In this document: positions 13,944-54,545 of the stretch, piece after piece
Layout of the letters: every line of letters starts with the position of its first letter
Numbering within the stretch: the first letter of the stretch is position 1
The notes under the pieces: model-generated
Database searches by the model: none
Seen by the model: only the letters and a program-made list of their open reading frames with translations
Told to the model about the DNA's origin: nothing
NCBI GenBank assembly: GCA_016642085.1
Contig: VOQV01000004.1
Coordinates: 18,622-82,621, forward strand
DNA from: Pantoea sp. Brub
GTDB taxonomy: Bacteria > Pseudomonadota > Gammaproteobacteria > Enterobacterales > Enterobacteriaceae
Direction: 5' to 3'
Length of the DNA: 64,000 nucleotides
Translations under genes and position numbers: made by a program

Positions 13944-15029
13944 ATGGCTGGGAATAGTATCGGTGAGTTGTTTCGCGTAACTACATTTGGTGAATCACAT
14001 GGAACTGCATTAGGTTGTATAGTTGATGGTATGCCACCTGGTATGTCATTAAATATATTGGATATTCAACATGATTTAGATCGTCGTTGTCCTGGCAAAT
14101 CATATTATACTACTCAACGTCGTGAGTTAGATCAAATAAAAATATTATCAGGTATATTCCAAGGGATTACTACCGGCACTTCTATTGGTTTATTAATTGA
14201 AAATATAGATCATAGATCTCAAGATTATGAATTCATTAAACATAAATTCCGTCCAGGACATGCTGATTATACCTATCAAAAAAAATACGGTATACGTGAT
14301 TATAGAGGAGGTGGACGTTCTTCAGCACGTGAAACCGTAATGCGTGTAGCAGCAGGTGCAATTGCAAAAAAATATCTTAAAATAAAATTTGGGCTGTTAA
14401 TTAGAGGGTATTTATCACAAATAGGTAACATTAAATGTAACTTTGATGATTGGAATTTAGTTGAACAAAATCCATTTTTTTGTCCAAATTTAAATAATTT
14501 AAAAGATATAGATCAGTTAATTCGTTCTTTAAAAAAAGAAGGAGATTCTATTGGAGCTAAATTAACTGTTGTAGCAGAAAATGTTCCAGCTGGTTTAGGT
14601 GAACCAGTCTTTGATAAATTAGATGCAGATTTAGCACATGCTTTTATGAGTATCAATGCCGTTAAAGGTGTAGAAATCGGTGATGGTTTTGCAGTTATTA
14701 ACCAAAGAGGAACTCAACATCGTGATGAAATTAGAATAAATGGTTTTCAAAGTAATCATGCTGGAGGTATATTAGGTGGTATTAGTAGTGGACAAATAAT
14801 TAATGTAAATTTAGCAATAAAACCTACATCTAGTATTGCTTTATCTGGAAAAACTATTAATGAAAATAAAGAAGAATTGAATATAGAAACTAAAGGACGT
14901 CATGACCCATGTGTTGGAATTCGTGCTATTCCTATTGTTGAAGCTATGATGGCTATAATATTAATGGATCATGTGCTAAGAAACAATGCACAATGTATAG
15001 ATGTAAAAAATACTACATTTTTTATTTAA
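13944..15029 (+). CDS. aroC: Chorismate synthase
   Basis: 361 aa, [47 protein letters not shown]. Confidence 0.98.
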
Positions 15030-15401: not shown

Positions 15402-16619
15402 ATGAAACGTGCTGTTATTACTGGATTGGGAATCATTTCTAGTATAGGGAATAATCAAAAAGAAGTATTTTATTCCCTGAAAGAAGGTCGTTCTGGTATT
15501 ACCTTTTCTCAAGAAATGAAACATTCCGGTATGCGCAGTCATGTTTGGGGTAATATAAAACTAGACACTACAGGATTAATTGATAGAAAAATTTTACGTT
15601 TCATGAATGATGCATCTATTTATGCTTACTTATCAATGCAAGAAGCTATAAAAGATTCAGGATTAAATATACAAATATATCAAAATAATCCACGAGTTGG
15701 TATTATTGTAGGATCAGGAGGAGGCTCTCCGCATTTTCAAGTTGTTGGTGCTGATGCAATGCGTAGTCCACGTGGTTTAAAATCTGTAGGTCCATATATA
15801 GTAACTAAGGCTATGGCTTCTGGAGTGTCTGCTTGTCTTGCTACTTATTTTAAAATTCATGGAATAAATTATTCAATTAGTTCAGCTTGTGCTACATCTG
15901 CTCATTGCATTGGCAATGCAGTTGAACAAATTCAATTAGGTAAACAAGATATTGTTTTTGCAGGTGGAGGAGAAGAATTGTCTTGGGAAATGGCCTGTGA
16001 ATTTGATGCTATGGGTGCATTGTCTACTAATTATAATAACACTCCTGAAAAAGCATCTCGTGTTTATGACAGCAATCGTGATGGTTTTGTAATAGCAGGT
16101 GGTGGTGGTATTGTTGTAGTTGAAGAATTAGAGCATGCATTAATGAGAGACGCAAATATTTATGCAGAAGTTGTCGGTTATGGTGCTACATCAGATGGTT
16201 TGAATATGGTTGTTCCATCAGGTGAAGGAGCTATGCGTTGTATGAGTACAGCAATAAAACATATTAACGATCCAATAGATTATTTAAACAGTCATGGAAC
16301 ATCTACATTAATAGGAGATTTAGTAGAATTAAATGCTATTCATAGCGTATTTGGTAATAATATACCATATATCTCTGCTACTAAATCTATGACTGGCCAT
16401 TCCTTAGGTGCATCCGGTGTTCAGGAAATAATTTATTGTTTAATTATGTTAAAATATAATTTTATAGCACCAAGTATTAATATTGATCTATTAGATACAA
16501 ATGCTAAAGGAAGTAATATTATAACTAAACCTACTAATAGTATATTAAATATTGTTATGTCTAATAGTTTCGGTTTTGGTGGAACTAATGCTACATTAGT
16601 AATGCAGAAATATCACTAA
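15402..16619 (+). CDS. fabB: Beta-ketoacyl-ACP synthase I
   Basis: 405 aa, [12 protein letters not shown] active-site Cys region, [21 protein letters not shown]. Confidence 0.98.
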
Positions 16620-16770: not shown

Positions 16771-17903
16771 ATGAAAATTTTAATTGATGAAAATATTCCT
16801 TACTCTTATGAAATATTTAGGAATACTGGAGATGTAATTAAAATTACTGGTCGTACATTAAAAAAAAAAATTTATTAAATATTGATGCATTAATCATACG
16901 TTCAGTTACAAAAATTAATGAAGATTTATTAAAAGACCAATCAATAAAATTTATAGGTACAACTACATCTGGTATTGATCATGTTGATCAAAAATTTTTA
17001 ATGAAATCAGGAATTGAGTTTGCTTATGCTCCAGGTTGTAATTCTACTGCTGTAGCAGAATATGTTTTTTCTGCTTTGCTTTTTTTAGCAGAACATTATA
17101 ATTTTGAACTGAACAAAAGAATAGTAGGTATAGTAGGATTAGGCCATATCGGGACAAAATTACAAAAAATATTAGAGGCATGGGGAGTAAAAATTTTAAC
17201 GTGTGATCCAATACGTTCTGCTAGAGGTGATGTTGGTACATTTTATTCCTTAAATGATTTAATTAAAAAAGTTGATGTACTAACTTTTCATACTCCTTTA
17301 TTGCATTATGGTTTGTATAACACTTTTCATATGATGAATGAAAAATTATTAATGTCGTTACGTCCAAACACTATTTTAATTAATTCTAGTAGAGGTTCAG
17401 TAATTAATAATAATATTTTACTAAAAGTATTAAAAATAAGAAAAGATCTAAAAGTCGTATTAGATGTATGGGAAAATGAACCAAAAATATCAATTGATTT
17501 AGTTAATAACGTAAACATTGCTACAGCTCATATTGCCGGTTATACTTTAGAAGGAAAAATACGAGGTGCAATTCATATTTTTAAATGCTGGTGTAAGTTT
17601 ATAAATCAACCTCAAAAAATAGATATTAATGATTTTTTACCTAGTAATCAATATAAAGAAATTGTATTGCATGGTATGATTAATCAAAGTATATTATATA
17701 GTTTAGTAAACTTAACATATAATATATATAAAGATAATACATTATTGCGTAATCTTGTAACACAACCAAAAGGTTTTGATAATTTGCGTAAATTTTATAA
17801 AGATCGCAGAGAATGGTTTTCTTTGAAAATTAAATGTGATTTACGAATAACTTGCAAAATTTTAAAACAACTTGGATTTAATAGTTTTTTTATTAAGCGT
17901 TAA
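16771..17903 (+). CDS. pdxB: Erythronate-4-phosphate dehydrogenase, reading frame interrupted at poly(A) tract 16860-16870 (candidate transcriptional slippage or pseudogene)
   Basis: Frame 1: MKILIDENIPYSYEIFRNTGDVIKITGRTLKK; after the A11 run the homology continues in another frame: NLLNIDALIIRSVTKINEDLLKDQSIKFIGTTTSGIDHVDQKFLMKSGIEFAYAPGCNSTAVAEYVF... to 17903. Confidence 0.93.
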
Positions 17904-17946: not shown

Positions 17947-18759
17947 TTGTTTATTATCACCTTTAATAGAGAAGTAAAAAAATTAGCTATGGGTATTGAA
18001 TATGATGGAACTAATTACTTTGGATGGCAACGTCAAAAAGAAGTTGTTAGTATACAAGAAAAATTAGAAGATGCCTTATCTAAAATAGCTAATCATTCAA
18101 TCAATATTTTTTGTGCTGGTAGAACAGATGTAGGAGTACACAGTACTGGTCAAGTTATACATTTTGAAACAAATGTTTATCGTAATAATCATGCTTGGAC
18201 AAGAGGTGTTAATTCTAATTTACCAAATGATATTGCTGTGCTTTGGGTCAAAGAAGTACCGTATGAATTTCATGCAAGATATAGTGCTATAGCTCGTAGA
18301 TATCGTTATATAATATATAATCATACTCTTAGACCAGCTATTTTATATAAAGGTTTAACTTATTGTTATAATCTACTTGATATACAAAAAATGCAACGTT
18401 CTAGTAAATGTTTACTGGGAGAGAATAATTTTTCGTCATTTTGTTCGTCATTATGCCAATTAAAGAAACCATATAGAAATATAAAATATATTGATATAAT
18501 ACGTCATGGTAGATATATAATATTTGATATTATAGCGAATTCTTTTTTATATCATATGGTACGTAATATTGTAGGCAATTTAATTGAAATTGGTTGCGAC
18601 AAAAAACCAGAATCTTGGATTGAATATCTTTTACTATCTGAAAATAAACAATTAGTTACTAAAACAGCTAAAGCAAAAGGTCTTTATTTAGTTAAAGTAT
18701 ATTATCCTCTGAGATTTGGTTTACCTAAAATTCCTATAGGACCTTTATTTCTTAATTGA
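17947..18759 (+). CDS. truA: tRNA pseudouridine(38-40) synthase
   Basis: [31 protein letters not shown]; likely TTG start. Confidence 0.96.
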
Positions 18760-18854
18760 TTTTTTTAAAAAATTAATATCAATTTATAGCAATAAATATT
18801 ATATTAATAATATCTAAATAAAATAAATTAAATTTGATCACGGATCTAAACTCA

Positions 18855-19724
18855 ATGAGTTGGCTTGAACGTATATTTAATAAAAACAATATTAAATCTG
18901 TAAAACGAGCTAATATTCCAAGTGGAATATGGACTAAATGTGATCAATGTAATCAAATTTTATATCGTGCAGAATTAGAACGTAATCTTCAAGTATGTCC
19001 CAAATGTGATTATCATATGCGTATAAATGCTCGTGATCGTCTTGATGCATTTTTAGATAAAAATTTTTTGACAGAAATAGGTAGTAAATTAGAACCAAAA
19101 GATATATTAAAATTCCGTGATTTAAAAAAATATAAAGATCGTTTGATAATTGCTCAAAAAGAAACTAATGAAAAAGATGCTTTAGTTGTTATGAAAGGTA
19201 AATTATATAATATGCCAATTGTAGCAGCAGCATTTGAGTTTGGGTTTATGGGGGGGTCAATGGGTTCAGTTGTTGGAGCACGTTTTATATTAGCAATTGA
19301 ACAAGTTTTAAAAGATAATTGTCCATTAGTTTGTTTTTCTGCTAGTGGTGGAGCACGTATGCAAGAAGCTTTAATATCTTTGATGCAAATGGCTAAAACC
19401 AGTGCAGGATTAGCAAGAATGCAACATGTTGGTTTACCGTATATTTCTGTACTTACAGATCCAACTATGGGAGGAGTATCTGCTAGTTTTGCTATGTTAG
19501 GTGATTTGAATATAGCAGAACCACAAGCATTAATAGGTTTTGCAGGTCCACGTGTTATTGAACAAACTGTAAGGGAAAAATTACCTATAGGTTTCCAACG
19601 CAGTGAATTTTTAATTGAAAAAGGAGCTATAGATATGATAATTAGTCGTCCGCAGATACGTTATAAATTAGCTAATCTTCTAGCAAAGATAATGAATTTC
19701 CCAAAACCTATTAATAATGATTAA
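18855..19724 (+). CDS. accD: Acetyl-CoA carboxylase carboxyltransferase subunit beta
   Basis: CDQC...CPKC zinc finger, [11 protein letters not shown]; start at MSWLERIF. Confidence 0.97.
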
Positions 19725-19763
19725 TTATTATTAAATGTAATCATTACTCATAATATAAAAAAT

Positions 19764-21014
19764 ATGCATAATATTTTTAACTTTCAAGACAATGATTCTT
19801 TAAAATCATGGATTAATTATTTAGAAAATTTACATACTAAAACTATTAATTTAAATCTAGATAATGTCTACTTAGTTGCAAACAGATTACAGTTATTAAA
19901 TCCTGCAAAATTTGTTTTTATAGTTACTGGTACAAATGGCAAAGGAACTACTTGTTATGTTTTAGAAAAATTATTAATAAATGCTGGATATAGTGTCGGT
20001 GTTTATAATTCTCCACATCTTATAAATTATACTGAAAGAGTACGAATTCAAGGACAAGAACTTAGTGATGCACAACATGTTAATAGTTTTTTGAACATTG
20101 AATTAAATCGTAAAAATACTTTATTAACTTATTTTGAATTTAGTACTTTATCAGCATTGCATTTGTTTAAAATAATAAAACTTGATGTAGTAATATTAGA
20201 AGTAGGACTAGGTGGCAGATTAGATGCTACTAATATTATTGATGCAGATATTGCAATTATTACTAATATCGATTTAGATCACACGAATTTTTTAGGTAAC
20301 ACTCGTGAAAGTATTGGCCGTGAAAAAGCAGGAGTTTTTCGTACAAATAAATTAGCAATAGTTGCGGAACAAAATATGCCAAATAGTATTTCAACAATTG
20401 CCAAACAAAAAAATACAAAATTATTAAAAATTCATCAAGAATGGAATTATAAAACAACAAATCTAAACTGGTCACTATATGATAGTTATGGAAAACTGGA
20501 AAATTTGCCTTTACTAAATATTCCATTAGTAAATGCAGCTAGTGCTTTAGTAGCATTACGCTCTGCAAAATTTAAAATAAGTGAACTAAATATTCGTCAG
20601 AATTTACCATGTATATCTATTCCTGGACGATTTCAAATTATTAATCAACATCCTAAAATTATTTTAGATGTAGCACATAATCCACATGCTGCGAATTATT
20701 TAGCTGCACGTTTAATATCTCTTAGAAAAATAGGTAAAATACATGCTATAGTTGGTATGTTGAAAGATAAAGATATTCAAGGGACACTTTGTGCTTTAGA
20801 AATGCAGGTAGATTATTGGTATTGTATAACACTTAATTGTCCACGTGGTGCTAAAGGTGATCAACTATCAACATATCTTGTAAAATCTCAAGTTTTTTCA
20901 GATATTAAAAACGCTTGGCAAACAGCATTGAAGAAACTAAACACACAAGATATATTATTAGTATTTGGTTCTTTTTATACTGTTGCTCAATTTATAAATT
21001 TAGTTAAAAGATAA
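19764..21014 (+). CDS. folC: Bifunctional dihydrofolate/folylpolyglutamate synthase
   Basis: VTGTNGKGTTCYVLEKLL P-loop, LDVAHNPHA. Confidence 0.96.
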   Translation: MHNIFNFQDNDSLKSWINYLENLHTKTINLNLDNVYLVANRLQLLNPAKFVFIVTGTNGKGTTCYVLEKLLINAGYSVGVYNSPHLINYTERVRIQGQELSDAQHVNSFLNIELNRKNTLLTYFEFSTLSALHLFKIIKLDVVILEVGLGGRLDATNIIDADIAIITNIDLDHTNFLGNTRESIGREKAGVFRTNKLAIVAEQNMPNSISTIAKQKNTKLLKIHQEWNYKTTNLNWSLYDSYGKLENLPLLNIPLVNAASALVALRSAKFKISELNIRQNLPCISIPGRFQIINQHPKIILDVAHNPHAANYLAARLISLRKIGKIHAIVGMLKDKDIQGTLCALEMQVDYWYCITLNCPRGAKGDQLSTYLVKSQVFSDIKNAWQTALKKLNTQDILLVFGSFYTVAQFINLVKR

Positions 21015-52805: not shown

Positions 52806-54545
52806 TTGAATATTCAATATATTCTTTCAGAGAGAATCAATCAAGCAATGATATTAACAGGTATCCAATTAGATAATTTTAAACCAAAAGTACAACAGAC
52901 ACATTATGCTAAATTTGGTGACTATCAAATAAATGGTATTATATCTATTGCTAAAAAACTAGGACTGTCTCCAAAAAAATTAGCTAAAATAGTTATTCAA
53001 AATCTTGATCTAAAAGATATTGCTAGTCGTGTGGAAATTGCAGGTATAGGTTTCATTAATATTTTTTTAAATCGTACATGGGTAGCTAAAAATATAAAAC
53101 AAATGCTAATTTTACCCAAATTAGGAATTTCTAGAATTAAAACTCAAACAATTGTAATAGATTATTCTGGACCTAATATAGCTAAAGAAATGCATGTTGG
53201 TCACTTAAGATCAACTATTATCGGTGATGCTATGGTTCGCATATTAGAATTTTTTGGCCATAAGGTTATTCGTGCTAATCATATTGGTGATTGGGGTACA
53301 CAATTTGGTATGTTATTAGCTTTTTTTGAAAAACAACAAGACAAAAAATCTTTAAATGATGAAATAATATTAAATGATCTTGAAAATTTTTATTTTGAAG
53401 CTAAAAAAGAATACGAAAAAAATTCTAGTTTTGCAGAACTTGCAAGAAAATATGTAGTTAAACTCCAAAATGGAGACAAATATTGTCTAAATTTATGGAA
53501 CAAATTAGTTACTATAACAATGAATCAAAATCAAAAAATATATAATCGCTTAAATGTAACTCTTACAAATAGAGATGTGATGGGTGAAAGTTTATATAAT
53601 AATATGCTACCTGATATTATATCTGATTTAAAACAAAAAGGATTAGCCTTAGAAAGCCAAGGAGCAACAGTTGTTTTTCTTGATGAATTTAAAAATAAAG
53701 AAGGTCAATCTATGGGGGTTATTGTAAAAAAAAAAGATGGAGGATACCTATATGCCACAACTGATATTGCTTGCATTAAATACAGATATGAAAAATTAAA
53801 AGCAGATCGTATTATTTATTATACTGATTCACGTCAAAATCAACACTTATTACAAATATGGAATATTGTAAGAAAAGCTAATTATATTCCTAAATCATTA
53901 TTGCTTGAACATCATTCTTTTGGCATGATTCTTAATAAAAATGGACAACCATTTAAAACTCGTTCAGGTAAGACTGTGAAACTATCTAATTTATTAGATG
54001 AAGCTGTTAAAAGAGCTTATAAAATAGTCAAACATAAAAATATTAATATAAATGAAGAAGATACACATAAGTTAGCAGAAATTATTGGTATAGGAGCAGT
54101 TAAATATACCGAATTGTCTAAAAATCGCAATACTGATTATATTTTTGATTGGGATAAAATGTTAACTTTTGAAGGAAATACCGCTCCTTATATGCAATAT
54201 GCTTATTCACGTATAATGTCTATATTTCGCAAAATACAAAATAATTTTTATTTTATGGATGCAGATATTGTTATTACCAATGATACAGAATTAGAATTGG
54301 CAATTTCTTTATTAAGATTTGAAGAGACGGCTAATCAAATCATGCAAAATGGTATGCCTCATATTATGTGTAATTATCTATATATATTGGCAAGTAAGTT
54401 TTCTGTTTTTTATGAAACTTGTCCTATTTTAAATGCAACAGAAACATATATTAAAATGAGTCGTTTACAATTATCATTATTAACTGCAAAAATATTACAA
54501 ATAGGTCTTGAAATGTTAGGAATTAAAACTATAGAACATATGTAA
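52806..54545 (+). CDS. argS: Arginyl-tRNA synthetase
   Basis: TTG start [35 protein letters not shown]-type motif. Confidence 0.98.

Follow-up and report, generated by a model that had tools for sequence, protein, structure and literature searches.

The pdxB gene in the analysed window, a single 64-kb stretch of DNA, is split by a one-base frameshift in a run of eleven A's, and at least nine further genes of this genome carry such a lesion. We consider it likely that the lost base is real and is bypassed by slippage of RNA polymerase, which would produce messages with twelve A's and from these a functional full-length PdxB. For the lesion class as a whole slippage was the best explanation, given the genus-wide census of such frameshifts in essential genes. 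The features of the locus, in window positions, are listed below.

16771..16878, forward strand: pdxB 5' segment, ATG to a premature TAA, 35 amino acids, matching PdxB profile positions 1-31
16860..16870, forward strand: A11 homopolymer and site of the one-base frameshift (direct reading, run length by script)
16871..17903, forward strand: pdxB 3' segment in another frame, open to a TAA, with GLGHIG, SSRG, WENEP, HIAGYT and DUF3410
13944-15029, forward strand: aroC, upstream neighbour
15402-16619, forward strand: fabB, upstream neighbour
17947..21014, forward strand: truA, accD and folC, downstream neighbours

The best NCBIfam matches for the downstream part of the gene were PdxB (E 2.6e-124), with scores under the equivalog cut-offs (415 of 687 and 358 of 434 bits), and the short N-terminal piece aligned with the start of the same profiles. 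The 3' segment contains an NAD motif, GLGHIG, and the C-terminal domain of PdxB, DUF3410, scored above cut-off. SSRG, WENEP and HIAGYT we take to be the catalytic R, E and H positions of the D-2-hydroxyacid dehydrogenase family. The gene therefore has the dehydrogenase core, NAD motif, R/E/H residues and C-terminal domain by which PdxB is recognised, and it lies in a gene order (aroC-fabB-pdxB-truA-accD-folC) common to the sister genomes, with the neighbours arranged in the same way in all congeners.

The PdxB frame restarts immediately 3' of the A11 run and is then open as far as the TAA at 17903. It is rejoined to the upstream frame by one added A or, equally, by the loss of two A's. With one A added the gene reads ...GRTLKKKNLLNIDALIIRSVTK... 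and encodes a full-length protein that aligns to PdxB without gaps; the spacing in this stretch is presumably that of E. coli PdxB. An earlier note on this DNA had described the split at the run, the resumption of the frame behind it and the restoration of the protein by one additional A, and all three were borne out. Within the window this run exceeds every other homopolymer. The 843-kb genome has nine A/T runs of 11 bases, this one included, and a single longer run, of 13 bases. Elsewhere in the window, an argS-like gene has an A10 run (53726-53735) with the frame kept.

Apart from the single frameshift, no extra stops were found in pdxB and the rest of the gene is intact, i.e. a single indel within an A/T homopolymer of 9 or more with the remainder open, as is expected of slippage-type lesions. 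The GC content by codon position in the downstream frame (0.362/0.292/0.117) is near the genome ORF means (0.383/0.313/0.119), which indicated that this frame is still gene-like. The gene is not accelerated either: the distance from the outgroup G018 to the window's genome (G000), divided by the sister mean on a fixed tree, was 0.97, with the neighbouring genes at 0.85-1.17. The absence of other decay claimed in the earlier note was thus confirmed, and no relaxed evolution after the frameshift was seen in rate or codon-position GC, although a recent event would limit the power of this comparison. Rate, GC and residues together speak against a long decay and are equally compatible with a recent loss.

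pdxB is open in four sister genomes (G001, G002, G003 and G005; protein identity 53-58%) and, where read, the sister genes lack a long A run at the corresponding site, a comparison that the earlier note had proposed. A scan for related loci returned no close relative. In G004, fabB and truA are separated by roughly 0.8 kb of AT-rich DNA (C5, L202:10998-11823) in which no gene could be recognised. Given that the sisters lack the run and that this spacer is without a gene, we conclude that the A tract arose in the G000 lineage and that pdxB has been lost once in the genus. Run and lesion are unique to this lineage.

Genes that were broken once and otherwise intact were sought by tblastn of sister-genome ORFs, with a second pass for breaks near gene ends. 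The census covered about half of G003 and parts of G001, G002 and G004. Gene names were taken from reading homologous proteins, except for those searched as families. In addition to pdxB, the following frameshifted genes were found.

murB, G000:C12:3346-3354, A9
murC, G000:C6:12270-12279, A10
era, G000:C27:53442-53451, A10
holA, G000:C23:47624-47634, A11
holB, G000:C28:20796-20805, A10
ispE, G000:C13:82598-83439, A9
cdsA, G000:C4:19440-19449, T10, near-end pass
uvrD, G000:C25:334-344, A11, near-end pass
ybeY, G000, near C23:41222, A9, near-end pass
ispE, G005:C4:241840-242666, A9, same site as in G000
ispE, G002:C4:242556-243382, A10, different site
nadK (A10), accA (A10), rlmB (A9) and rluD (A10), G005

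In G000, nadA (A11) and thiD (A11) are probably also frameshifted, their start codons being uncertain. The earlier note had presented pdxB as a singular case, which did not hold. ispE is split in three of the six species, at an identical A9 site in G000 and G005, while family searches found era, murC and holA split in G000 only and open in the five sisters. Frameshifts outside homopolymers were almost confined to visibly eroded genes with stops, the exception being an lptB-like gene in G005. Many of the split genes, ispE among them and most of those in G000, are essential in E. coli, and some compensation must therefore act on this lesion class.

Two frameshift-like signals were rejected, one in ftsY (a variable N-terminus) and one in pheA (an eroded N-terminal domain); in the pheA-like gene (G000:C29:37694-38584) the chorismate mutase N-terminal part is eroded and the remainder open. 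On the same contig, an in-frame A13 (G000:C29:3357-3369) lies within an ORF of 1178 amino acids whose homologue in G005 is eroded with many stops, and a block of about five genes (G000:C29:12382-17828) is heavily eroded in G000 and intact in G005.

If slippage is the compensation at pdxB, the gene would have lost one base in a lineage-specific poly(A) run, on which RNA polymerase would backtrack, and part of the transcripts would gain one A, occasionally more. The A12 messages would encode full-length 4-phosphoerythronate dehydrogenase, and enzyme output would be sufficient for pdxB to persist without decay. Both Buchnera and Blochmannia have documented poly(A) lesions of this kind together with their rescue (PMC5009743, PMC3017870), the published cases include lineage-specific ones (PMC3017870), and in the symbionts of aphids and ants rescue was at 12-50% of transcripts (PMC5009743). 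In a survey of Buchnera transcript errors by error-proof sequencing, 151 of the 157 insertions by RNA polymerase were in homopolymers, all of them A/T runs, and mostly of one base; their frequency rose exponentially with run length, deletions in runs were few, and no case of slippage restoring a reading frame was reported (PMC5574713). The earlier note had held that pdxB is probably functional through slippage, which is partly supported. The frameshift and its homopolymer context are real, and Buchnera and Blochmannia are a fitting comparison. For pdxB itself function is probable, and a pseudogene of recent origin is a serious competitor.

The direction of the lesions was one-sided. In the first set of cases all 14 needed one added A (two-sided binomial p = 1.2e-4). 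The near-terminus pass disproved the idea that every case does so, since cdsA (T10) needs -1 or +2, as nadA and thiD (both A11) probably do. This left 16 of 19 cases restored by one added A (binomial p about 0.004), a count that may include two ispE cases of common origin. Insertion-biased slippage would explain this direction, and deletion-biased replication may be an alternative source of it. We tentatively suggest, as a possibility somewhat short of even chances, that the clade's tolerance of frameshifts is directional, genes surviving mainly when they are one A short and the polymerase mostly adding one A. If this is true, insertion-biased slippage filters which replication errors become fixed and is a molecular filter on genome decay; the one-sided direction also yields a testable prediction.

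The runs located within ORFs with homologues were 78 A9, 24 A10, 5 A11, 1 A13, 22 T9 and 2 T10. The enrichment of frameshifts in coding-strand A runs (12/205) over T runs (0/38) was not significant (p = 0.22), and cdsA T10 was added after this comparison. In G000 each of the nine 11-base runs falls in a gene and reads as A on its coding strand; between three and five of the nine break the frame. Runs of this length apparently drift almost irrespective of frame, which would be expected of buffered expression.

The strongest alternative is that pdxB is an incipient pseudogene, i.e. that the A11 lesion is recent, the gene is no longer needed and its decay is still invisible. We regard this as rather unlikely, on balance, and yet serious. 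The tract is private to the G000 lineage, pdxB is fully eroded in G004 although pdxA, pdxJ, serC and pdxH remain there, the pdxA gene of G003 is split at an A9 run (C6:84154-85106), and Blochmannia obliquus has lost pdxA, pdxB and pdxJ (PMC4389277). The events in G004 and G003 are the main reasons for our caution about pdxB function, and given these events selection for B6 synthesis in the genus may be weak. Against a pseudogene stand the absence of extra stops and of rate acceleration, the normal codon-position composition, and the fact that lesions of this class also affect genes the cell could not do without (murC, holB, era and cdsA). In G000 itself pdxA, pdxJ, serC and pdxH are present, pdxA and serC being cut by contig ends. 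The B6 pathway has been hit twice in the genus, in pdxB of G000 and in pdxA of a second species, and the set of genes kept in G004 prompts one to ask what supplies the pathway there.

Rescue could also be translational, with ribosomes shifting -1 on A AAA AAA inside the run and transcription unchanged. Each case needing one added A could equally be met by a -1 ribosomal shift, and any stretch of at least 9 A's includes the slippery heptamer A_AAA_AAA. However, a search for programmed -1 stimulators at pdxB found neither an upstream Shine-Dalgarno-like element nor a stable downstream structure (dG -2.7, z +1.2), and run lengths of 9-11 suit the threshold for slippage better than the 7 nt of ribosomes. 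Among the 13 sites tested AGGA was present upstream of 3, and a hint of downstream structure was obtained at one, pdxA of G003 (z -1.98). Given the lack of stimulators at pdxB, transcriptional slippage is preferred over a ribosomal shift, which has little probability and would have the same effect.

An error of assembly or consensus, or polymorphism within the population, with A12 as the true or majority tract, is about as improbable, if not slightly more so. The assembly is a draft (843,259 bases, 30 contigs, GC 25.5%; the sister genomes are 0.8-0.9 Mb) and indel errors usually fall in homopolymers. It matches in size, GC and scaffold number the genome of SoBr, the gut symbiont of the stink bug Brachystethus rubromaculatus (0.843 Mb, GC 25.5%, 30 scaffolds, 430x; Table 1 in PMC8032781), which was obtained from MiSeq 2x300 reads with Unicycler, and we infer that the two are the same. 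Contigs overlap by exactly 127 bp in G000 and in the sister G005, which is typical of SPAdes-type k-mer assembly. With such data and assembly a wrong homopolymer length at A11 is unlikely; in addition, errors would need a preferential single direction, and the 78 A9 and 24 A10 runs sit within open ORFs. A working shorter PdxB made by reinitiation was ruled out, since no ATG, GTG or TTG occurs before 17001 in the downstream frame and the N-terminal region would be removed.

Slippage of RNA polymerase at pdxB and the other split genes would add stink-bug gut symbionts to the aphid and ant endosymbionts in which frameshifts tolerated through slippage are known; the affected genes here serve core replication, cell-wall, lipid and isoprenoid functions. 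Annotators who scored these genes as pseudogenes would then wrongly deny the symbiont B6 synthesis as well as essential functions.

Among known systems, the pdxB run shares a slippery A_AAA_AAx with the -1 ribosomal frameshift of E. coli dnaX, which differs in having stimulatory elements of a kind not found at pdxB. As in the programmed slippage of Thermus dnaX and Shigella mxiE (PMC1088944) there is an A/T run of at least 9 and, as deduced here, a mixture of mRNA frames, but the pdxB tract is neither conserved nor regulatory. Given that it is private to one lineage, it is tolerated damage and not a programmed site. The closest parallel is provided by the poly(A) frameshifts of Buchnera and Blochmannia (Tamas 2008; Wernegreen 2010, as cited in PMC5009743, PMC3017870 and PMC4389277), which likewise are single indels in A runs of otherwise intact genes, without rate acceleration and several per genome (4-8 in Blochmannia), in AT-rich reduced genomes of insect symbionts. 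The present candidate cases differ in clade and lifestyle (a stink-bug gut symbiont), in their number (at least ten genes) and in the strong excess of lesions restored by one added A. They are a new and well-populated case of a known phenomenon and not a new mechanism.
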